Shown: positions 23,360 through 59,868 of the stretch, piece after piece
Layout of the letters: every line of letters begins with the position of its first letter
Position numbering within the stretch: position 1 is the stretch's first letter
Assembly: GCA_030550095.1 (NCBI GenBank)
Contig: JAUQQA010000001.1
Location: 124,001 to 188,000 of the forward strand
DNA length: 64,000 bases
Direction of reading: 5' to 3'
Source: Chloroflexota bacterium
Lineage (GTDB): Bacteria > Chloroflexota > Anaerolineae > J036 > Brachytrichaceae
The notes under the pieces: generated by a model
Databases searched by the model: none
The model's input: only the letters and a program-made list of their open reading frames with translations
What the model was told of the DNA's origin: nothing
Made by a program: the position numbers and the translations under genes

Positions 23360-24223
23360 ATGCTGTCATTTGAAGCAAAGTATCGGCGTGAAGCCCTCGA
23401 AGTGCCCCCCATTCCGTGGCTCGGGATGGGCATTTTCCGCTTCTGGATTGGGCGCTTCTACGTGGGCTTCTGGGGATTGGTGGCGCTTTTCTTCGGGCTG
23501 ATCGGCGCCTCAGTGTGGTTCTGGCGGGTGTTGTTCGTGGACCCATTGAACTCCAATAACCCGCTGCTGAACTTCATCCGCGGTCAGATCAAGCCCCCGC
23601 CCCCAGAAGTCGGTCTCTCGATCCCGCTTGACGGGGAGAAGGGGTTGTGGTGGATCGTGGTGGTTTTCTGCGCGACGATCACCTTCTTCGCCTGGATGAT
23701 GCGCCAGGTGGAGATCTCGCGCATGCTGAAGATGGGCTACCAGGTGCCCATTGCTTACGCGGCGGTGTTCTCCTCGTGGATCACGATCCAGATTCTGCGC
23801 CCGGTGCTGCTTGGGCACTGGTCGGAGGGCTTCCCGCTCGGCGTGATGGCGCACTTGGATTGGCTTTCGGCGTTCGGTTACCGCTACTACAACTTCTTCT
23901 TCAATCCTTTCCACGCGCTTGGCATCACCTTCCTGTTCGGGAGCGCGTTCGTGCTTTCGCTGCACGGCGCCACCATCCTCAGCGCCTCAGGCAAGAAAGC
24001 CGAAGGGGTCACCGAGGAGAACGTCAACCAGTTCTATTGGGACTTTCTAGGTTACTCCATCGGTGAGGTGGGCATCCACCGCCTGGCGCTGTGGACGGCA
24101 GTGCTTGCGGTGCTCGTGAGCAATCTGTGCTTCGTGCTCTCTGGGACGGTGGTGCAAGACTGGAACGCCTTCTGGGACTTCTGGAACAAGTTGCCGTTCT
24201 GGAGCGGGTTCGGCTTTAACTAA
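23360..24223 (+). CDS. pufL: Photosynthetic reaction centre L subunit
   Basis: A 287-aa membrane protein with five helices. Key ligands align with the purple-bacterial L chain: His165 (accessory BChl, in AHLDW), His185 (special pair, NPFH), His202 and His240 (non-haem iron; SLHGATIL and GIHRLALW). A separate pufL, with pufM starting 16 nt later, differs from the fused pufLM of Roseiflexus. A GAGGTGA site precedes the ATG. The 265-nt leader from pufA holds the large hairpin plus a smaller inverted repeat (GGACTGA 23245-23251 / TCAGTCC 23289-23295). Confidence 0.96.
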   Translation: MLSFEAKYRREALEVPPIPWLGMGIFRFWIGRFYVGFWGLVALFFGLIGASVWFWRVLFVDPLNSNNPLLNFIRGQIKPPPPEVGLSIPLDGEKGLWWIVVVFCATITFFAWMMRQVEISRMLKMGYQVPIAYAAVFSSWITIQILRPVLLGHWSEGFPLGVMAHLDWLSAFGYRYYNFFFNPFHALGITFLFGSAFVLSLHGATILSASGKKAEGVTEENVNQFYWDFLGYSIGEVGIHRLALWTAVLAVLVSNLCFVLSGTVVQDWNAFWDFWNKLPFWSGFGFN

Positions 24224-24238: not shown

Positions 24239-25126
24239 ATGACGACCGAAGTCTATCGCGAGTCCTTCGAGCGGCGCACCAAGACGGTGCGGTACCTGCG
24301 CTTCCTTGAAGGGCTGGCTGACACGCAGGTAGGACCGATTTTCCTCGGCATGTGGGGCACGGTGGCGCTGTTCTCCTACCTGCTGAGCGCGTTCATCACA
24401 GCGGTTGGGTTCGGCGAGCAAGTGGGTTGGAACCCGATCCGCTTCGTACGTGAGTTGCCTGTGCTCACGCTTTACCCGCCGCCGCCTTCGTATGGCTTGC
24501 AGCTTGCCCCACTGCAAGAGGGCGGCTACTGGCAGATCGCCACGTTCTTCCTCACTGTGTCGTTAATCGCGTGGACGTTCCGCGCGTGGACGCGCGCCGT
24601 GGCCAACGGCTTGCGCCCCACGGTGGCGATCGCCTTCACAGCAGCGCTGTTCCTCTACGCGGCGATCTACATCATCCACCCGATCTCGGTGAACTCGTGG
24701 AACGAGGCGCCAGGACACGGGTTGGCGGCACTCCTGTTGTGGACCAACCACTTCAGCGTGAAGTACGGCAACTTCTACTACAACCCGTTCCACATGGTCT
24801 CGATCTTCGGGTTGCTGGGCAGCGCGGTGATCCTGGCGATGCACGGCGCGACGATCCTGGCGACGTTGGCGTATAACGCCCACAAGGAAATTGACGAGAT
24901 CGAGAAAAGCGACGAGGGCACCCATCGCGCACAGCTCTTCTGGCGCTGGGTGATGGGCTTCAACGCCACGGCGCACTCGATCCACGTGTGGGCGCTGGGC
25001 TTCGCTTCCCTCACGGCAATCGCCGGCGCTATCGGCGTGATCGCCAGCGGCTGGCTCGAGCCAAACTGGTACCTGTGGGGCTGCCGCGCAGGGATTACGC
25101 CCGGCATCCAAGCCGCTTGTCCGTAA
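24239..25126 (+). CDS. pufM: Photosynthetic reaction centre M subunit
   Basis: A 295-aa five-helix subunit. His185 (special pair, NPFH), His202 and His249 (iron) are present. At the accessory-BChl position the purple His (M182) is replaced by Leu165 (LLLWTN), so a bacteriopheophytin should occupy this site, as in Chloroflexus (three BChl, three BPheo). The purple TyrM210 equivalent is Leu193. No puhA-like H subunit is seen, which fits Chloroflexota reaction centres. The ribosome-binding site AGAGGAGGTG is strong. Confidence 0.96.
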   Translation: MTTEVYRESFERRTKTVRYLRFLEGLADTQVGPIFLGMWGTVALFSYLLSAFITAVGFGEQVGWNPIRFVRELPVLTLYPPPPSYGLQLAPLQEGGYWQIATFFLTVSLIAWTFRAWTRAVANGLRPTVAIAFTAALFLYAAIYIIHPISVNSWNEAPGHGLAALLLWTNHFSVKYGNFYYNPFHMVSIFGLLGSAVILAMHGATILATLAYNAHKEIDEIEKSDEGTHRAQLFWRWVMGFNATAHSIHVWALGFASLTAIAGAIGVIASGWLEPNWYLWGCRAGITPGIQAACP

Positions 25127-44908: not shown

Positions 44909-45322
44909 ATGGACCAATACAAGGTGCGCGACTGGATGACCACCAACCCGGTGACGATCACGCCGCAGACCTCGCTCGCAGAGGCGCACCGCATCATGAA
45001 GCAAAAGCGCGTGCGCCGCTTGCCTGTGCTGGAGAACGGCAAGCTCGTTGGCATCGTCGCGTTGAGCGACGTGCTTGAAGCAGAACCTTCCAGCGCTACG
45101 ACGCTGAGCATTTACGAGATCAACTATCTGCTGGCGGAGATGAAAGTCGAGAAGATCATGAAGCGCAACGTGATCACCGTCACCCCCGACACGCCCATCC
45201 GCGAAGCGGCTAACCTGATGCTCACACACAAGATCGGCGGCTTGCCCGTGGTGGAAAACGGCAAACTCGTCGGCATCATCACCGAGTCCGACATCTTCCG
45301 CATGATCGTGCGCACAATGTAG
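44909..45322 (+). CDS. CBS-domain pair protein
   Basis: A 137-aa Bateman module with two CBS repeats (VRDWMTTNPVTI... and VEKIMKRNVITV...), each ending in LPV--NGKLVGI. It is related to the CBS protein at 20890 but not identical. It has a clear AGGAGGC site and TACAAT (44878-44883) as a probable -10 about 25 nt upstream. It probably senses adenine nucleotides. The partner is unknown; it is divergent from the oxidase operon. Confidence 0.9.
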   Translation: MDQYKVRDWMTTNPVTITPQTSLAEAHRIMKQKRVRRLPVLENGKLVGIVALSDVLEAEPSSATTLSIYEINYLLAEMKVEKIMKRNVITVTPDTPIREAANLMLTHKIGGLPVVENGKLVGIITESDIFRMIVRTM

Positions 45323-45347: not shown

Positions 45348-45376
45348 TTGACAGGCGAGCAGGCACCCGTTACACT
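45348..45376 (+). promoter_or_regulatory. cimA promoter (TTGACA - 17 nt - TACACT)
   Basis: A perfect -35 TTGACA (45348-45353), an ideal 17-nt spacer, and -10 TACACT (45371-45376, 4/6 to TATAAT). The predicted transcription start is about 7 nt downstream, placing the leader-peptide ATG (45391) almost at the 5' end. Confidence 0.8.
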
Positions 45377-45390
45377 CTGCGCCCAGAACC

Positions 45391-45483
45391 ATGCAGGCTA
45401 CATTCGCCACATACGCGATTGGGGTGATTTGCCCGATTATTGCGGGTGAACGACGCGCGCCCGAATCGCGGATGGCGAGCTGA
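45391..45483 (+). CDS. Putative Ile-rich leader peptide of cimA
   Basis: A 30-codon ORF with ATG near the predicted transcript 5' end. Its core reads AIGVICPIIAG, with Ile codons (all ATT) at positions 10, 13, 16 and 17, plus one Val. The dense Ile cluster lies just before a gene for isoleucine-precursor synthesis. Segment 2 of the attenuator lies 11-20 nt before its stop codon, so a ribosome finishing translation would cover it. No homology is claimed; the assignment rests on codon content and RNA geometry. Confidence 0.75.
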   Translation: MQATFATYAIGVICPIIAGERRAPESRMAS

Positions 45484-45536
45484 GCCGAGCACACCAGACG
45501 CGCAGCAGAAAGCCCTCCGACGATTCGGAGGGCTTT
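45414..45536 (+). promoter_or_regulatory. Transcription attenuator controlling cimA
   Basis: Three mutually exclusive pairings are visible. Segment 1 CGCGATT (45414-45420, holding the first Ile codon) pairs with AATCGCG (45464-45470). Segment 2 CCGAATCG (45461-45468) pairs perfectly with CGATTCGG (45521-45528), the loop and lower 3' arm of the terminator. The terminator itself is 45509-45536. A ribosome stalled at Ile codons 13-17 would mask segment 1, release segment 2 and favour read-through. Completed translation would favour termination. Pairings are by eye; energies were not computed. Confidence 0.75.
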
Positions 45537-45539
45537 TTT
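45509..45539 (+). terminator. Intrinsic terminator in the cimA leader
   Basis: AAAGCCCTCCGA (45509-45520) and TCGGAGGGCTTT (45525-45536) form a perfect 12-bp stem with a CGAT loop and a six-T run (45534-45539). It lies upstream of cimA rather than after a gene, which marks it as an attenuator element. Confidence 0.9.
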
Positions 45540-45559
45540 GTTGAGGCACGAGGTCAACC

Positions 45560-47131
45560 ATGAGCACCCTTCTCTACGACACCACTTTGCGCGACGGCGC
45601 CCAAGGCGAAGGCGTCAATTTCTCGGTTGAAGACAAGCTGCGCATCGCTCAGCGCCTCGATGAGTTCGGCATGCACTACATCGAAGGCGGCTGGCCTGGG
45701 AGCAACCCCAAAGACGCGACGTTCTTCCAACGCGCGCAGGCTATTCGCTGGAAACATGCGCGCTTGGCAGCGTTCGGCAGCACGCGCAAAGCACACACGC
45801 GCGTCGAGGATGATCCTCAAATCCGCGCGCTCCTCGAGGCGAACACGCCTGTGGTCACGCTCGTGGCAAAAACGAGCACCCTGCACGTCACTCACGTGCT
45901 GGAGACCACGCTCGAGGAGAACTTGAACATGATCCGCGACAGCGTCGCTTTCTTCAAGCAGCACGGCAAGGAAGTGATGCACGACGCCGAGCATTTCTTC
46001 GACGGCTTCAAGCTAGACAAGGAGTATGCGCTCGCTACACTGCGCGCCGCGCGCGACGCCGGTGCGGATTGGCTCGTGTTGTGCGACACGAACGGCGGCA
46101 CCATGCCGTGGGAGGTCGAAGAGATCGTCCGCTACACCATCCAAACGCTGCGCGCTGAGGCGCCCAACCGTCCGCTGCGCTTTGGCATCCACGCGCACAA
46201 CGACGCAGGCGTGGCGGTGGCAAACAGCCTCGCCGCCGTGCGCGCAGGATGTGAGCAGGTGCAGGGCACCATCAACGGCATCGGCGAGCGCGTGGGCAAC
46301 TGCGACCTCGTGACCACGCTCGCCAACCTCAAGCTCAAAATGAACGACGACTGCGTGAGCGATGAAAAGCTGCGCGGGCTTACGGAACTTTCGCGCTTTG
46401 TCTTTGAGGTCGCTAACCTCACGCCCGACATTCGCCAACCCTACGTGGGCCAAGCCGCATTCGCGCACAAAGGCGGGATCCACGTCTCCGCCATTCTCAA
46501 GGTTGAGGAAAGCTACCAACACATTGACCCCGCGCGCGTGGGCAACCAAAAGCGCGTGCTCGTGAGCGAGCTGAGCGGGCGCGGCAACATCGCCTACAAG
46601 GCAAAGGAGTTCGGCCTAGACCCCAACAGCGTCGAGGTGCGCCAAGTGTTGCAGCGCATCAAAGAGCTGGAGAACCGCGGGTTCTTCTTCGAGGGCGCAG
46701 ATGCCAGCTTGGAGCTGATGCTGCGCCGCGCGCAGCCGGGCTATGCGCCGCTCTTCGAGCTGCTGGACTACATGGTCGTGGTGGAACACCGCGAAGGGCG
46801 CGGCGTCCTCGCCGAGGCAAGCGTCAAGATCCGTGTGGACGGCGAGGTGACGCACACCGTCGCCGAGGGCAACGGGCCGATCCACGCGTTGGACCTCGCC
46901 ACGCGCAAAGCGCTGATCCCGCATTACCCCAAGCTCAAGCGCGTGCGCCTGGTGGACTACAAGGTGCGCATCATCGACAGCGACCAAGCCACCGGCGCTA
47001 CCACGCGCGTGACGATTGACTCCACCAACGGACACCGCACTTGGACCACAGTTGGCAGCTCGGCGAACATCGTGGATGCCTCTTGGCAGGCACTCGCCGA
47101 CTCCATGGAGTATGCCTTGCTGATTGCATAA
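45560..47131 (+). CDS. cimA: (R)-citramalate synthase
   Basis: A 523-aa member of the LeuA/CimA family. It condenses pyruvate and acetyl-CoA to citramalate, the threonine-independent route to 2-ketobutyrate and isoleucine. An N-terminal TIM barrel has YDTTLRDGAQGEG, CDTNGGT and the metal motif HAHND, with the AAFAHKGGIHVSA lid segment. The C-terminal LeuA-type regulatory domain (about 390-523) likely binds isoleucine. GWPGSNP and DAEHFFDG are typical of the long CimA subgroup. It is controlled by an upstream Ile-codon leader and terminator. Confidence 0.93.
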   Translation: MSTLLYDTTLRDGAQGEGVNFSVEDKLRIAQRLDEFGMHYIEGGWPGSNPKDATFFQRAQAIRWKHARLAAFGSTRKAHTRVEDDPQIRALLEANTPVVTLVAKTSTLHVTHVLETTLEENLNMIRDSVAFFKQHGKEVMHDAEHFFDGFKLDKEYALATLRAARDAGADWLVLCDTNGGTMPWEVEEIVRYTIQTLRAEAPNRPLRFGIHAHNDAGVAVANSLAAVRAGCEQVQGTINGIGERVGNCDLVTTLANLKLKMNDDCVSDEKLRGLTELSRFVFEVANLTPDIRQPYVGQAAFAHKGGIHVSAILKVEESYQHIDPARVGNQKRVLVSELSGRGNIAYKAKEFGLDPNSVEVRQVLQRIKELENRGFFFEGADASLELMLRRAQPGYAPLFELLDYMVVVEHREGRGVLAEASVKIRVDGEVTHTVAEGNGPIHALDLATRKALIPHYPKLKRVRLVDYKVRIIDSDQATGATTRVTIDSTNGHRTWTTVGSSANIVDASWQALADSMEYALLIA

Positions 47132-47248: not shown

Positions 47249-48169
47249 ATGATTCGCGTCGAAGGCTTAAAAAAGTCCTACGGCACGATTCAAGCGCTGC
47301 GCGGTGTGAGCTTCCACGTTGCCGCAGGCGAGATCGTCGGTTTGCTCGGACCGAACGGCGCAGGCAAATCCACCATCATCAAGATCCTCACGGGCTACCT
47401 ACAACCCGATGAGGGCGTTGCTGAGGTGGATGGGCTGGACGTGGTCACACATCGCCTCGAAGTGCAAGCGCGCATTGGCTACTTGCCGGAGACCACGCCG
47501 CTCTACCCCGACATGACCGTTCAGGCGTACCTGAAGTGGATCGCCGATCTGCGCCAAATCCCGCCCGATAAGCAACGCGAATACATCTCAGAAGCGGTCT
47601 ATGCCACAGACATCGCCAGCTTTCTCAACCGCCCCATCGGCAAGTTGAGCAAAGGCATGCGCCAGCGCGTGGGGATCGCGCAGGCAATCCTGCACAAGCC
47701 GCGCCTGCTGATCCTCGACGAGCCGACGATTGGGCTTGACCCGACGCAACTGGTCGAGATCCGCCAGCTCATCCGAACGCTCGCCGAGCGCAGCACAGTG
47801 CTCTTCTCCAGCCACATCTTGCCAGAGGTCGAGGCGGTATGTCACCGCGCGATCATCATCATGAACGGCGAGATCAAAGCCGACGCGCGCCTGAGCGACC
47901 TCGCGGCAACCAACAACGCGATCCTCACGCTTCAGCGCCCGGTAGCCGAGTTTGAGCGCACCGTGCGCGCTGTGCCCGGCGTGCAAAAGGTGGAGCGCAT
48001 CGCCAGCGACGGCGGGCTGAGCTATCGCGTGTACGGCGCGCCCAACGCCGACCTCTGCCCAGCGCTCTATGCCGCCGCTACGCAGAACGGCTGGCCCCTG
48101 CGCGAGCTGCGCGAGGACCGCCGCACGTTGGAGAGCGTGTTCAACGAGCTTGCGATGCAAGCCGCGTAA
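47249..48169 (+). CDS. ABC transporter ATP-binding protein (GldA-like)
   Basis: A 306-aa ATPase: Walker A GPNGAGKS at 34-41, signature LSKGMRQRV near 134 and Walker B LLILDEPTIGLDP with the catalytic Glu, then a C-terminal extension of about 80 residues typical of the GldA/NatA group. A GGAG site precedes the ATG. It forms a three-gene unit with the permease-GldG fusion 18 nt downstream and the DUF4340 gene. Gld-type ABC systems are linked to gliding in Bacteroidota and occur widely elsewhere with unknown cargo. Confidence 0.92.
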   Translation: MIRVEGLKKSYGTIQALRGVSFHVAAGEIVGLLGPNGAGKSTIIKILTGYLQPDEGVAEVDGLDVVTHRLEVQARIGYLPETTPLYPDMTVQAYLKWIADLRQIPPDKQREYISEAVYATDIASFLNRPIGKLSKGMRQRVGIAQAILHKPRLLILDEPTIGLDPTQLVEIRQLIRTLAERSTVLFSSHILPEVEAVCHRAIIIMNGEIKADARLSDLAATNNAILTLQRPVAEFERTVRAVPGVQKVERIASDGGLSYRVYGAPNADLCPALYAAATQNGWPLRELREDRRTLESVFNELAMQAA

Positions 48170-48187
48170 CTGGGGAGGTGTGAAGGG

Positions 48188-51091
48188 ATGAAGACCATTC
48201 TGGCGACTGCGCGCAAGGAGTGGAACAACTACTTCAGCTCGCCGCAGGCATTGATCTTCATCGGCGTCTTCCTCGTGGCGAGCTTGTTTGTCTTCTTCTG
48301 GGTGGAGACCTTCTTCGCGCGCGGGCTGGCGGAAATGCGCCCGTTGTTCCGCTGGATGCCCGTGCTGCTCATCTTCCTGGTCGCAGCGCTCACAATGCGC
48401 CAGTGGAGCGAGGAGCAGCGCAGCGGTGCGCTGGAGATCCTGCTCACGCTCCCTGTTCCCACATGGCACTTGGTGCTGGGCAAGTTCCTCGCGGTGATGG
48501 GGCTGGTAGCGCTTGCGCTTGCGCTCACGCTGCCCCTCACGGTGAGCGTTTCGTTGCTCGGCAATTTGGATTGGGGACCCGTGATTGGCGGTTACTTGGC
48601 AGCGCTGCTGCTCGCGGCTGCCTATGCCGCGATCGGGTTGTTCGTCTCCTCGCGCACCGATAATCAGATCGTCGCGCTGATCCTCACGGCGATCATCGGC
48701 GGCGCGTTCTACCTCATCGGCAGCCCGGTGCTGACAGGGTTCGTCGGCACCTCAGCAGCCGAGTTCTTGCGCTTGCTCGGCACTGGCAGCCGCTTCGAGA
48801 GCATCGAGCGCGGCGTGATTGACTTGCGCGATTTGGTTTACTATGCGGCGCTCGCCGGGCTGTTCCTCACACTCAACGCTTGGTCGCTCGATCGCAAGCG
48901 CTGGAGCTTCGGGGCGCAAACCGCGAGCTACCGCCGCGCGGCAAACCTCACCAGCGCCCTCATCGCCTTGAACCTCGTTGTGGTCAACGTCTGGATGGCG
49001 CCGTTGCAAGTGCTGCGCGCTGATCTCACGGCGCAGCGCGAGTTTAGCCTTTCGCCAGCGACACTGCGCCTCTTGAACGAGCTGCAAGAGCCGCTGTTGC
49101 TGCGCGCCTACATCAGCGAGAAGACGCACCCCTTGCTCGCGCCACTAGCGCCGCGCGTGCGCGATTTGCTGCGCGAGTATCAGATCGCCGGGCGCGGCAA
49201 GGTCACCGCACAAGTGGTGGACCCGGCCACTGACCCTGAGATCGAGGCAGAAGCCTCGCGCGTGTACGGCATTCAGCCCACGCCGCTGCAAGTAGCGGGG
49301 CGCTACGAGGCCTCCATCATCAACACGTACTTCGATATCCTCGTGCGCTATGGCGACCAGAACACCACGCTGAGCTTCCGCGACCTGATCGAGATCGAGC
49401 AGCGGCGCGACGGCACGATTGACGTGCGCCTGCGCAACCTCGAGTATGACCTCACGCGCGCGATCAAGCGCGTCACCAGCGGCTTCCGCACCGTCGAAGC
49501 CGTGTTCGCCTCGCTGCAATCCCCCGCGCGGTTGGACATCATCGTGACGCGCCAAGCGCTGCCCGAGGCGCTGAAGGACGTGCCCGAGGTTATCGAGAAA
49601 GTCGCCAAAGAGCTTCAGCAAAAATCTGGCGGCAAGTTCGAGTATCGCGTGATTGACCCCGACCAGCCCAACGCGCCGATCACGCGCAAGATACTCGTGG
49701 AGCAATTCGGGCTGCGCCCGATCTTGGCAGATCCTTTCGGCACGCAGTCGTTCTACCTGAACATGCTGCTCCAGGTGAACGACAAGACACAAGCCGTTTA
49801 CCCCGAGCGCGAGTTCACTGAGTCCTCAGTGCGCGCAGCGATTGAGTCGGCAATCAAGCGCAACGTCGGCGGGTTCCTCAACGTGGTCGGCTTGTGGACG
49901 CCTGCGCCGGAGATGGACATGTTCAGCAACCGCCCGATCAACAACTGGAACGTGGTGCGCGAGCAGCTCGGGCGCGAGTACACCGTGCGCAGCGTGGATC
50001 TGAGCAGCGGGCAAGTGCCACCCGATGTGAGCACGCTCATCCTGCTCAACCCCAGCAACCTCGACGACAAAGCGCGCTACGCCGTGGACCAGTTCTTGAT
50101 GCGCGGTGGCTCAGTGATCGTCGCTGGCGGCAACTACGCGGTGCAATTCGGCTTCGGCGGGATGAACCTAATGCCGCTCAGCAACGGCATCGGCGAGTTG
50201 CTCGCCCATTACGGCATCACCGTTGAGCAAAAACTGGTGATGGACCCACGCAACACGTTGTTCCCTGTGGAGGTCTCGCGCAACGTCGGTGGCGCTTTCA
50301 TCCGCGATTTCTTGCTGATCAGCTACCCGTTCTTCGTGAACGTGCTGCCCGACAGCATGGATCGCCAGAACCCGATCGTGTCGCAGTTGCCCGAGGCGAT
50401 CATGAGCTTTGCTTCGCCCGTGGTGGTGGACGAGCAGAAGAACGCCAACCGCAAGGTGAGCGTGTTGCTGCGCTCCAGCCCGAACGCCTGGCTCACCACC
50501 AACACCAACACGCAGCCCAACTTCAATCAGTACCCCGAGCTTGGCTTCCCCGTCGAAGGTGAGCGCGCGGCGTATCCGCTTGCCGTCGCCGTGCAAGGCG
50601 TGTTCGAGAGCTTCTACAAAGGCAAGCCCTCGCCGCTCGATCAACCCGCGCCGACGCCTGCGCCAGAGTCCACACCACAGCCCACCCCCACGCCGCAAAT
50701 TCGTACCGCTGGCACCATTGAGCAATCGCCCGACACGGCGCGCTTGGTGGTGATCGGCAGCGCCGACTTCCTCAACGATGCGGTGCTCAACATCCTCGCC
50801 GGCTTCATCGGCGAGCGCTACCTCAGCAACCTTCAGTTCATCCAAAACGTGGTGGACTGGTCGGTGGAGGACTTGGCGCTGCTGGAGATTCGCTCGCGCG
50901 GCACAGTCTCGCGCGCGCTGCGCCCGCTCTCGGAGAACGATCGGCGGCTGTTCGAGTTTGCTAACTACGCGGTGGTGGTTGTGGCGTTGTTCGCCATTGG
51001 CGTGATCTGGCGCCTGCGCCAGCAAGCAGAGCCAGTGATGCAGCTGGTGCCCGTCTCCACAACGCGCAGCCCTGCCAACCGCGCTGCGTAA
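48188..51091 (+). CDS. GldF-type permease fused to GldG-type auxiliary domain
   Basis: A 967-aa single chain. Residues 1-235 are an ABC-2 permease with six helices (starting ATARKEWNNYF, the usual GldF opening). A seventh helix near 253-270 leads into a large extracytoplasmic GldG/ABC_transp_aux region (about 275-910: AYISEKTHPLLAP, VVDPATDPEIEAEASRVYGI, and LILLNPSNLDDKARYAVDQF). A Thr/Pro-rich insertion lies near 815-840, and a C-terminal helix (about 925-945) ends it. In many genomes GldF and GldG are separate genes. Confidence 0.9.
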   Translation: MKTILATARKEWNNYFSSPQALIFIGVFLVASLFVFFWVETFFARGLAEMRPLFRWMPVLLIFLVAALTMRQWSEEQRSGALEILLTLPVPTWHLVLGKFLAVMGLVALALALTLPLTVSVSLLGNLDWGPVIGGYLAALLLAAAYAAIGLFVSSRTDNQIVALILTAIIGGAFYLIGSPVLTGFVGTSAAEFLRLLGTGSRFESIERGVIDLRDLVYYAALAGLFLTLNAWSLDRKRWSFGAQTASYRRAANLTSALIALNLVVVNVWMAPLQVLRADLTAQREFSLSPATLRLLNELQEPLLLRAYISEKTHPLLAPLAPRVRDLLREYQIAGRGKVTAQVVDPATDPEIEAEASRVYGIQPTPLQVAGRYEASIINTYFDILVRYGDQNTTLSFRDLIEIEQRRDGTIDVRLRNLEYDLTRAIKRVTSGFRTVEAVFASLQSPARLDIIVTRQALPEALKDVPEVIEKVAKELQQKSGGKFEYRVIDPDQPNAPITRKILVEQFGLRPILADPFGTQSFYLNMLLQVNDKTQAVYPEREFTESSVRAAIESAIKRNVGGFLNVVGLWTPAPEMDMFSNRPINNWNVVREQLGREYTVRSVDLSSGQVPPDVSTLILLNPSNLDDKARYAVDQFLMRGGSVIVAGGNYAVQFGFGGMNLMPLSNGIGELLAHYGITVEQKLVMDPRNTLFPVEVSRNVGGAFIRDFLLISYPFFVNVLPDSMDRQNPIVSQLPEAIMSFASPVVVDEQKNANRKVSVLLRSSPNAWLTTNTNTQPNFNQYPELGFPVEGERAAYPLAVAVQGVFESFYKGKPSPLDQPAPTPAPESTPQPTPTPQIRTAGTIEQSPDTARLVVIGSADFLNDAVLNILAGFIGERYLSNLQFIQNVVDWSVEDLALLEIRSRGTVSRALRPLSENDRRLFEFANYAVVVVALFAIGVIWRLRQQAEPVMQLVPVSTTRSPANRAA

Positions 51092-57615: not shown

Positions 57616-58206
57616 ATGCCGTTGCTGATCGACGGGCACAACCTGATCGGCAAGCTGCCGGGGCTTTCGCTCGCCGACCCCGACGACGAAGCGCGGCTGG
57701 TGGCGCTGTTGCGCGCGTACGTCGCGCGCACGGGGCGGCAGGTGGTGGTCGTCTTTGACCCAGGCGACGCAGCAACGCCGTCGCTGTGGGGCGAGAACCG
57801 CCACCGAGAGGGCAAGCTCGAGGTCATCTTCGCACCCGCTGGACGCAAAGCTGACGACGTGCTGCGCGAGCGGATTGCCCACGCGCGCGATAAGCAAGGG
57901 CTGATCCTCATCACCTCAGACAGTGCCGTGGCGCACTTTGCGCGGCAATGCGGCTTGCAGCATGTGCGCTCAGCAGAATGGTTTGCCGACGAGCTGCGCC
58001 GCGCCTTCGCTACAACACAACCTCCCAAGCCAGAGACACTCAGCAAGCACGAGGTCGAAGCGTGGCTCACGTTGTTCCCTGAGCCGCCCACGCCCCCACC
58101 GCCTCCGCCTAAGCCCGACCCTCAGCTCCTCAAGCGCCAACGCCGACTCGAGCAGCTAAGGCGACAAGTGGCCAATCAGCAGCCGCTGCGCCGCGCTCAG
58201 GAATAG
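57616..58206 (+). CDS. YacP-like NYN-domain nuclease
   Basis: A 196-aa protein: MPLLIDGHNLIG, VVVVFDPG, the K-ADDVLRERI segment and LITSDSAVA carry the conserved Asp residues of the NYN/PIN-like YacP (Rae1) family, a ribosome-associated mRNA endonuclease group. The C-terminal 40 residues are Pro-rich then basic and helical, unlike short YacP. The start at 57616 is supported by TACGAT (57600-57605) 10 nt upstream; an ATG four codons earlier overlaps that hexamer. Confidence 0.85.
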   Translation: MPLLIDGHNLIGKLPGLSLADPDDEARLVALLRAYVARTGRQVVVVFDPGDAATPSLWGENRHREGKLEVIFAPAGRKADDVLRERIAHARDKQGLILITSDSAVAHFARQCGLQHVRSAEWFADELRRAFATTQPPKPETLSKHEVEAWLTLFPEPPTPPPPPPKPDPQLLKRQRRLEQLRRQVANQQPLRRAQE

Positions 58207-58289
58207 CGCGTGCACATTTCTGCATCGTTGCTATCATTCCCCATACCCGCTGTGTGCAAGCGGATGGGCTTCTGGAGAGGAGATGGGCT

Positions 58290-59360
58290 ATGTTTCGAGA
58301 ACCGCTGCTGGCAAGCGCGCCGCTAAGGGTGGTTGAGAGAACGACGGACGTGGCAACGCGCGCGCCCAGCCAGCCTTCCCGCACTTTCGACGCTTTCGGG
58401 CGACACATCCACTATCTGCGCATCTCGCTCACCGACCGATGCAACCTGCGCTGCGTGTACTGCATGCCCGAGCAGGTTGTCTTCCGCCCCAACGAGGAGT
58501 TGCTCACCGACGAAGAGCTGTTCACCATCTTGCGCGTGATGAGCCGCTTGGGGTTTGACAAGTTCCGCCTCACTGGTGGCGAGCCAACCGTGCGCCCCGG
58601 CTTAGTGGAGATCGTGCGTGCCATTGCCGAATTGCCCACCACGCGCGAGATCGCCATGACCACCAACGGGCTGAAGCTGGCGCGGCTGGCTGCGCCGCTT
58701 AAGGCTGCTGGGCTTTCGCGCGTCAACATCAGCATTGACTCGCTCGACCCGCACAAGTTCAAGCGCATCACTCGCTGGGGAAACCTGCACGACGTGCTTG
58801 AAGGCATCGCGGCTGCTGAGCGCGTGGGTCTGACGCCGATCAAACTCAACGCAGTGGTGATCCGCGGCTTCAACGAGGACGACGTGGTGCCATTAGCAGC
58901 GCTAACGCTCGAGCACGATTGGCAGGTGCGCTTCATCGAGGTCATGCCCTTCGCCGATGTCGCCGCGTTTCAGCAAGCGGCTATCGTCACCACGCAAGAG
59001 ATGATGGCACGCATCGAAGCGGCGCTTGGGCCGCTGGAGATCGAGAACGGCGGCAAGCTCGACGGCGAAGCGCGCCTCTACCGCTTGCCAGGAGCGCGTG
59101 GCGTGATCGGCTTCATCAGCCCCGTCACCGCGCCCTTCTGCGCTAGCTGCAACCGCGTGCGCCTCACTGCCGATGGCACCCTGCGCCTGTGCTTGTTGAA
59201 AGATGGCGAAGTGGACCTCAAGACGCCACTGCGCCGCGGCGCGCGCGAGGACGACCTCGAGGCGATCATCCGCGAGGCAATCTGGCTCAAGCCCTGGGGA
59301 CATGACCTCGCCGAGGGCGTGATCCCCATGAACCGCATCATGAGCGAGATCGGCGGGTGA
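58290..59360 (+). CDS. moaA: GTP 3',8-cyclase MoaA
   Basis: A 356-aa radical-SAM enzyme for the first step of molybdenum cofactor synthesis. The SAM-cluster cysteines are 51, 55 and 58 (CNLRCVYC) and the C-terminal cluster cysteines are 284, 287 and 301. The protein ends in Gly-Gly, as required for MoaA activity. The N-terminus carries about 30 extra residues. A GAGGAG site lies 7 nt before the ATG at 58290. It is the first gene of a compact moaA-moaC-moaD-moaE cluster. Confidence 0.96.
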
Positions 59361-59373
59361 GACAATTCGCCCC

Positions 59374-59868
59374 ATGACGCTTTCGCATCTCAACGCGCAG
59401 GGCGAAGCGCACATGGTGGACGTCGGCACCAAGCCCGACACCACGCGCGAAGCCGAAGCCGAAGCCGTGGTGGAGATGAGCGCAGAAGCGTATCAAGCGC
59501 TGCTCAGCGGCAACCTGAAGAAAGGGGATGCCTTCAGCGTCGCGCGCATCGCCGGCATTCTGGCGGCAAAGCGCACCAGTGAGCTGATCCCCCTTTGCCA
59601 CCCACTGCCGCTCACGCACGTCGAGGTCGCGTTAGAGCCGTTGGGGATCACCGAGGGACGCGGCGCTGTGGGCGTGCGCGCGCGCGTGGCGTGCGTGGGC
59701 AAGACCGGCGTGGAGATGGAAGCACTCACCGCAGCAAGCATTGCCGCGCTGACCCTCTATGACATGGTGAAGGGCGTGGACCGCGGCACGGTGATCCGCC
59801 ATGTGCGGCTGCTCGCCAAGCGCGGCGGCAAATCAGGCGAGTGGATCGCCACAGGAGAGGAGAGATGA
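59374..59868 (+). CDS. moaC: Cyclic pyranopterin monophosphate synthase MoaC
   Basis: A 164-aa enzyme converting 3',8-cyclo-dihydro-GTP to cyclic pyranopterin monophosphate. [10 protein letters not shown] at the start, [15 protein letters not shown] and [20 protein letters not shown] are the family motifs. It lies 13 nt after moaA and shares an ATGA overlap with moaD. Confidence 0.96.

Follow-up and report, generated by a model that had tools for sequence, protein, structure and literature searches.

Citramalate synthase, the product of cimA, is the enzyme that begins isoleucine synthesis by the citramalate route. In a Chloroflexota genome, cimA is preceded by a CBS-domain gene of the same orientation that ends at 45322, with 237 bp between the two genes. 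The question here is whether isoleucine controls the transcription of cimA through a leader peptide. The DNA analyzed here, referred to as the window, is a stretch of 64,000 nucleotides; all coordinates are window positions, and the window genome and contig are labelled G000 and C17. A first-pass annotation, made from the letters of the window, had proposed an isoleucine-responsive transcription attenuator in front of cimA, and its coordinates for the attenuator proved correct throughout. The identity of the target gene was also borne out, as the product scored 696 bits against the citramalate synthase profile TIGR00977 (cut-off, 450). The pathway of the controlled gene makes Ile, the amino acid that would be sensed, a feature that defines membership among ribosome-mediated attenuators.

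The whole switch region (45348-45560) consists of a promoter, a leader ORF, and a terminator, followed by cimA (Table 1). Both direct reading and a promoter scan recovered the near-consensus promoter with 17-nt spacing described in the first-pass annotation, and this was the sole promoter-like match of the scan between 44800 and 46000 (mean of shuffles, 0.2). The 30-codon leader with four ATT Ile codons was likewise found on direct reading, with an Ile density that only 1% of shuffles matched. Its start codon lies 14 nt 3' of the -10 box and is without a Shine-Dalgarno-like site.

Table 1. Coordinates of the promoter, leader ORF, predicted RNA segments, and cimA in the window, with two leaders of partner genes
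Feature	Position	Strand	Details
Promoter, TTGACA / 17-nt spacer / TACACT	45348-45376	+	Direct reading, promoter scan
TTGACA; TACACT	45348-45353; 45371-45376	+	
Leader peptide ORF, 30 aa	45391-45483	+	MQATFATYAIGVICPIIAGERRAPESRMAS; Ile (ATT) codons 10, 13, 16, 17
Segment 1, 5' arm of predicted anti-antiterminator	45401-45420	+	Pairs with 45464-45470, 45473-45479, 45481-45482 (folding)
Segment 2, last codons of leader ORF	45461-45482	+	Core GGATGGC, 45470-45476
Segment 3, terminator 5' arm, loop, and first 3'-arm bases	45512-45528	+	Segment 2 partner, 15 bp
Predicted intrinsic terminator	45509-45539	+	12-bp stem 45509-45520/45525-45536, loop CGAT, T run 45534-45539
cimA, citramalate synthase, 523 aa	45560-47131	+	TIGR00977 profile match
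ilvB leader, L113	G000:C9, upstream of 58107-59786	-	Leu/Val-rich ORF
leuA leader, L154	G013:C2, upstream of 77190-78710	-	VIRKLIVLSHLTNALLLTGRGRISHGTAAQ

Three competing pairings had been put forward for the leader RNA. The pairing of CGCGATT (45414-45420) with AATCGCG (45464-45470) was confirmed, and the 1:2 hairpin to which it belongs is longer than first seen, as 45403-45409 also pairs with 45473-45479. The pairing of CCGAATCG (45461-45468) with CGATTCGG (45521-45528) was recovered as well. These 8 bp stand as described, but they are only part of the alternative structure: duplex computation gave a larger full antiterminator of 15 bp, comprising 45461-45468/45521-45528, 45469-45472/45516-45519, and 45474-45476/45512-45514. 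With this extension, the antiterminator takes the 5' arm of the terminator as well as its loop, as in the textbook design. The antiterminator duplex reached -25.7, compared with -12.1 ± 2.2 for shuffles, none of which was as strong (0/200). In the window, the 1:2 hairpin competes with the antiterminator; the leader ORF alone folds with a z score of -2.6, and 4 of 200 shuffles fold as well. The 158-nt leader RNA (45383-45540) folds at -73.2 kcal/mol (z score, -6.7; 0/200 dinucleotide shuffles). For the terminator at 45509-45536, the 12-bp stem was upheld, but the six T do not come after it as had been stated, since the first three of them lie within the stem; TTTG directly follows the stem on its 3' side. 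A simple terminator scan of the window did not list this hairpin, probably because its stem runs into the T run.

The effect of a ribosome on these structures was modeled by masked folding, using a crude footprint that spanned the A-site codon with 15 nt on its 5' side and 12 nt on its 3' side. When the RNA was folded up to the terminator loop, a ribosome at Ile10, Ile13, or Ile16 resulted in the antiterminator, the absence of a ribosome in the 1:2 hairpin, and a ribosome at the stop codon in neither. With the ribosome masked at Ile17, segment 1 re-paired under this crude footprint model and the antiterminator was not formed. In the full-length RNA, the terminator was the fold of lowest energy for each of the six ribosome states, stalled ones included; the switch must therefore be kinetic, decided during transcription, and this is the chief weak point of a case built on computation. 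The best reading of the locus, and in our judgment a highly probable one, is a ribosome-mediated, Ile-specific transcription attenuator of cimA. Sequence and comparison support its parts and pairings, their conservation and compensatory changes in relatives, and the geometry expected for stalls at three of the four Ile codons.

In the proposed mechanism, RNA polymerase would start about 7 nt after the -10 box, at about 45383, and a ribosome would immediately begin to translate the leader ORF, which is nearly leaderless. When charged tRNA-Ile is scarce, the ribosome would stall at Ile codons 10-16, covering segment 1 and breaking the 1:2 hairpin; the freed segment 2 could then pair with the emerging 5' arm and loop of the terminator, and cimA would be transcribed. 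When Ile is plentiful, the ribosome would reach the stop codon and cover segment 2, and the terminator would form. Without translation, the 1:2 hairpin would likewise leave the terminator free. For this scheme, we infer the transcription start, the stalling, the efficiency of termination, and the response to Ile.

Comparison was carried out within the family, which comprises 28 genomes, with 'Candidatus Roseilinea' and Thermoflexales as named relatives; the order holds the same 28 genomes. A full or near full-length cimA, one per genome, was present in 26 of the 28, the window's included, and these 26 loci were used throughout, leaving out a partial cimA copy (L029) and distant relatives (L027, L028, and L030). 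Leader starts were chosen by eye in 24 loci and, in the other two, by Ile count, and the hairpins used in pairing tests were picked hairpin strings, since automatic terminator detection missed many. Genomes G005 and G019 carry only a distant relative, with no match over thresholds for cimA, ilvB, or leuA; G019 is 91% complete, so that either a missing contig or auxotrophy may be responsible. The partial copy (G022:C4:68253-69191) is a second cimA, 88% identical over residues 208-520 and with one in-frame TGA, and is probably a pseudogene.

A leader ORF with 3-11 Ile codons was found upstream of cimA in all 26 loci; all 26 likewise have a hairpin, with energies between -15.7 and -22.3 kcal/mol, 17-38 nt 3' of the leader stop. 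The case that the first-pass annotation had named as contrary to its reading, a terminator kept while the Ile codons are lost, was thus absent from the set, in which every locus keeps both. Across the 26 leaders, Ile accounts for 160 of 836 residues after the start codon (19.1%), compared with 4.4% in CimA; Val makes up 5.7% and Leu 3.0% of the leader residues. ATT is favored in the leaders (111/160 Ile codons) and not in the cimA genes (172/601). In 24 loci, all but L015 and L018, Ile density was higher than in shuffles (0.05 level). Counting against the reading, the leaders of L017, L018, and L020 contain only 3 or 4 Ile.

The elements flanking the leader were more variable in quality. T runs of at least 4 were present at the hairpin end in 21/26 loci, with six T in the window; they were poor in the remaining five (L003, L004, L005, L007, and L008), where the longest run is 2-3, though with 5 T in 8 nt. 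The main T run of L017 and L020 begins 4 nt past the stem, and about 200 nt separate the terminator from cimA in L023 and L024. An exact TTGACA occurred within the best promoter match in 17/26 loci. The start codon follows the best -10 box by 7-15 nt in 24 loci, by 28 nt in L014, and by 35 nt in L021, in a comparison that had no shuffled control, and by a simple motif test only L014 of the 26 has a Shine-Dalgarno-like site. Since transcription starts about 7 nt after a -10 box, the predicted start sites would make the leader ORFs of the family nearly leaderless.

In the 26 loci, segment 2 starts 13-42 nt short of the leader ORF's end, and its core, near GGATGGC, faces GCCNNNC of the terminator arm with 5 or 6 of 7 pairs in every one of them. 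The apical half of the antiterminator pairs with the terminator loop and adjoining bases and changes on both sides between genera, giving the compensated helices CGAATC/GATTCG, CGGGT/ACCCG, CCCTGT/ACAGGG, GGATC/GATCC, CGGAT/ATCCG, and TCGGTT/GATCGG. A perfect apical helix of at least 5 bp was formed by 20/26 own pairs versus 210/550 cross-genus pairs, and one of at least 4 bp by 24/26 versus 274/550. Because the segment 2 pieces in the core and apical-helix comparisons were chosen by eye, the shuffle and permutation tests weigh more. By the former, the expectation that relatives keep the alternative pairing held for 18 of the 26 loci, in which it beat shuffled segment 2 (P ≤ 0.05), but not for the other eight (L004, L014, L015, L016, L017, L019, L020, and L025); the mean z score of the antiterminator over all 26 was -2.6. 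The mean own pairing energy was -20.4, compared with a mean of -17.7 and a best of -19.9 in 5000 permutations, though relatedness inflates this test; when each genus was represented by one row, 641 of 40320 permutations were as good. The leader ORFs of the other 25 loci also fold on themselves (no shuffled control).

Could the hairpin be nothing but the terminator of the CBS-domain gene, and the leader ORF a chance frame? Intrinsic terminators are common after co-oriented genes, and the length of the gap to cimA is in keeping with this, but the near-consensus promoter sits between the CBS-domain gene and the hairpin. Moreover, an Ile-rich ORF and a hairpin with a partner segment recur in 26 loci whose upstream stretches look unrelated by eye, and the apex of the hairpin co-varies with the leader, which leaves this explanation very unlikely. 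A leader that governs the translation of cimA or Rho-dependent termination, in place of intrinsic termination, is improbable to a somewhat lesser degree. Leader-peptide systems of both kinds exist, full-length folding favors the terminator in every state, and poor T runs in five loci would suit such control; against it stand the T runs of the other 21 and a GAGGT stretch resembling the ribosome site of cimA (45550-45554), which is located outside the terminator.

The long and very stable leader fold might also point to a metabolite-binding riboswitch or a T-box that overlaps a short ORF by chance. However, no T-box or riboswitch covariance model of Rfam matched, no Rfam family reached its gathering score in the window element, L003, L022, or L026, and the search of eight loci gave no match at that score. 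The sequences of the helices also differ from genus to genus, yet the frame retains its Ile content, and we regard this explanation as extremely unlikely. The amino acid leader families of Rfam (Leu, Thr, Phe, His, and Trp) likewise gave nothing above the gathering cut-off; the best weak matches of the window element were Phe_leader (28.5) and Thr_leader (21.7), each of which needs 55 and both of which are attenuators.

How far this attenuator extends was assessed in 40 of the 166 cimA-bearing non-family Anaerolineae genomes, spread over families, using 350 nt upstream of cimA (two had less than 300 nt). An ORF with 4 Ile in 12 residues together with a terminator was found in none of these 40 upstream regions; such an ORF alone was present in one (L188) and a hairpin alone in four. 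Among 58 named non-family loci (L053-L110, partly from the same genomes), an ORF of this Ile density occurred in 11: five from Verrucomicrobia, four that we take to be an aspartokinase tail from their appearance, and two from Chloroflexota (L091 and L093). As far as sampled, the attenuator appears to be a trait of one family.

In Verrucomicrobiales (L098, L100, L101, L102, L106, and L220-L251), a short Ile-rich ORF often precedes cimA and is followed by a hairpin of the form GGTGATTGCGAATCGGT...CCGAGTCGGGATCACC or an element like GGAGTCCGTCATGGC; ACCCTGTT repeats occur in some loci. An order-level search around a Verrucomicrobiales genome placed an ORF with at least 4 Ile in 12 upstream of 24/30 cimA loci (30 of 62 matches; no shuffled control). 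At least two different structures follow these ORFs, and L244 has a U-tailed hairpin by eye. If this lead holds, Ile leaders before cimA arose independently.

Genes for the partner steps were also compared. We found ilvB in 25 of the 28 family genomes (L111-L135), in each case with a Leu/Val/Ile-rich ORF upstream (8-11 such residues in 12, versus 2-7 upstream of leuA by the same measure); the leader in G000 reads MNSLLLVVVVLALLVLSGEDQRPFRMATCQA. In 22 of the 25, the best scan hairpin was a terminator between leader and ilvB. Outside the family, an ILV-rich ORF with a terminator preceded ilvB in 7 of 20 sampled Anaerolineae loci (of 79 found), namely, L202, L206, L209, L210, L213, L216, and L218. 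For leuA, a Leu-rich leader followed by a terminator was seen by eye only in L154 of 24 loci.

In many outgroup genomes (e.g., G037, G050, and G055), cimA and ilvB share a strand, with cimA about 4-13 kb after ilvB. The two genes are on different contigs in the window genome, and in some family genomes (G024 and G025) cimA still comes after ilvB and leuA in the same orientation but is nonetheless preceded by a promoter and leader of its own. We infer that, in the family, cimA turned into an independent transcription unit and acquired a leader matched to its product. A broader proposal, offered tentatively and perhaps somewhat against the odds, is that Ile-rich cimA leaders arose more than once, in the Roseilineaceae with a terminator and antiterminator and in the Verrucomicrobiales with different downstream structures, and that, more generally, a branched-chain gene acquires a leader specific for its product on becoming a separate transcription unit (Ile for cimA, Leu for the leuA of G013), while ilvB keeps a Leu/Val leader. 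This proposal is weakened because several family genomes still have cimA close to ilvB and leuA. In within-genome alignments of the cimA and ilvB attenuators, the best of 100 shuffles was beaten in 10/25 genomes and tied in 2; the window genome gave a tie (27 versus 27), in an alignment that covers the terminator stem only. Since single-base shuffles destroy the hairpin common to both attenuators and the alignment is confined to the stem, the excess does not prove common descent, and descent of the cimA attenuator from that of ilvB is not established.

The host had been described as phototrophic, in agreement with two matches to photosynthetic reaction-centre proteins (PF00124) within the window, at 23456-24202 and 24338-25096. 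Such genes were found in 16/28 family genomes, and a tie between the attenuator and phototrophy was rejected, because the attenuator also occurs in members in which no reaction-centre genes were found. Nor do we claim that CimA is the only route to Ile; G000 encodes a threonine dehydratase homologue (TIGR01127, 470 bits), and CimA therefore need not be the sole one. On the 3' side of cimA (47249-51088), the window encodes an ABC ATPase that resembles GldA most closely and a protein combining GldF-like with GldG-like parts; none of these matches reaches its curated cut-off.

Ribosome-mediated attenuators of enteric bacteria include those of trp, his, leu, thr, ilvGMEDA, ilvBN, and pheA (PMC1183508). 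Like these, the cimA element combines product codons in the leader, exclusive 1:2, 2:3, and 3:4 pairings, and an intrinsic terminator; unlike these, it has cimA as its target, Ile as the dominant codon, and a predicted 5' UTR of only a few nucleotides, and it differs from known leaders in matching no Rfam leader family at cut-off. A closer parallel in layout is the ilvBNC leader of Corynebacterium (ilvB-II motif), which has its leader start near the transcription start as well as a terminator, antiterminator, and anti-antiterminator (PMC11857589, PMC10272879). There, the transcription start is one nucleotide away from the start codon of the leader (PMC11857589). The title of a further reference mentions that a leader peptide is formed with no ribosome binding site. 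The Corynebacterium system differs in controlling ilvB, in its mixed Ile/Val/Leu codons, in a leader of usually 15-17 aa, and in belonging to Actinobacteria (PMC11857589, PMC10272879). Candidate ilvB leader peptides of Actinobacteria, also found by comparison, share branched-chain codons and a terminator with the cimA element, but precede ilvB in another phylum, and the accessible text calls their mode of regulation unclear (PMC1262725). Chloroflexi are counted among the groups with too few genomes in the accessible part of PMC4833913.

The accessible text of PMC13158618, PMC12452182, and PMC6561320 describes no leader control of cimA. In line with the statement in the first-pass annotation that such control is undescribed, we found no account of it in a literature search that lay mostly outside subscription journals, where an older description is possible, and the same search yielded no leader-peptide attenuator described for Chloroflexota. 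The mechanism would be that of a classical, trp-type attenuator, and its use on cimA appears to be undescribed. Its covariation makes the element well suited as a clean test of attenuation in which the leader ORF is almost leaderless. For the family, the citramalate route to Ile would gain a specific feedback switch at the RNA level and, taken together with the ilvB leader, this suggests a division of the branched-chain amino acids between two attenuators of the same genome, one responding to Ile and the other to Leu and Val.
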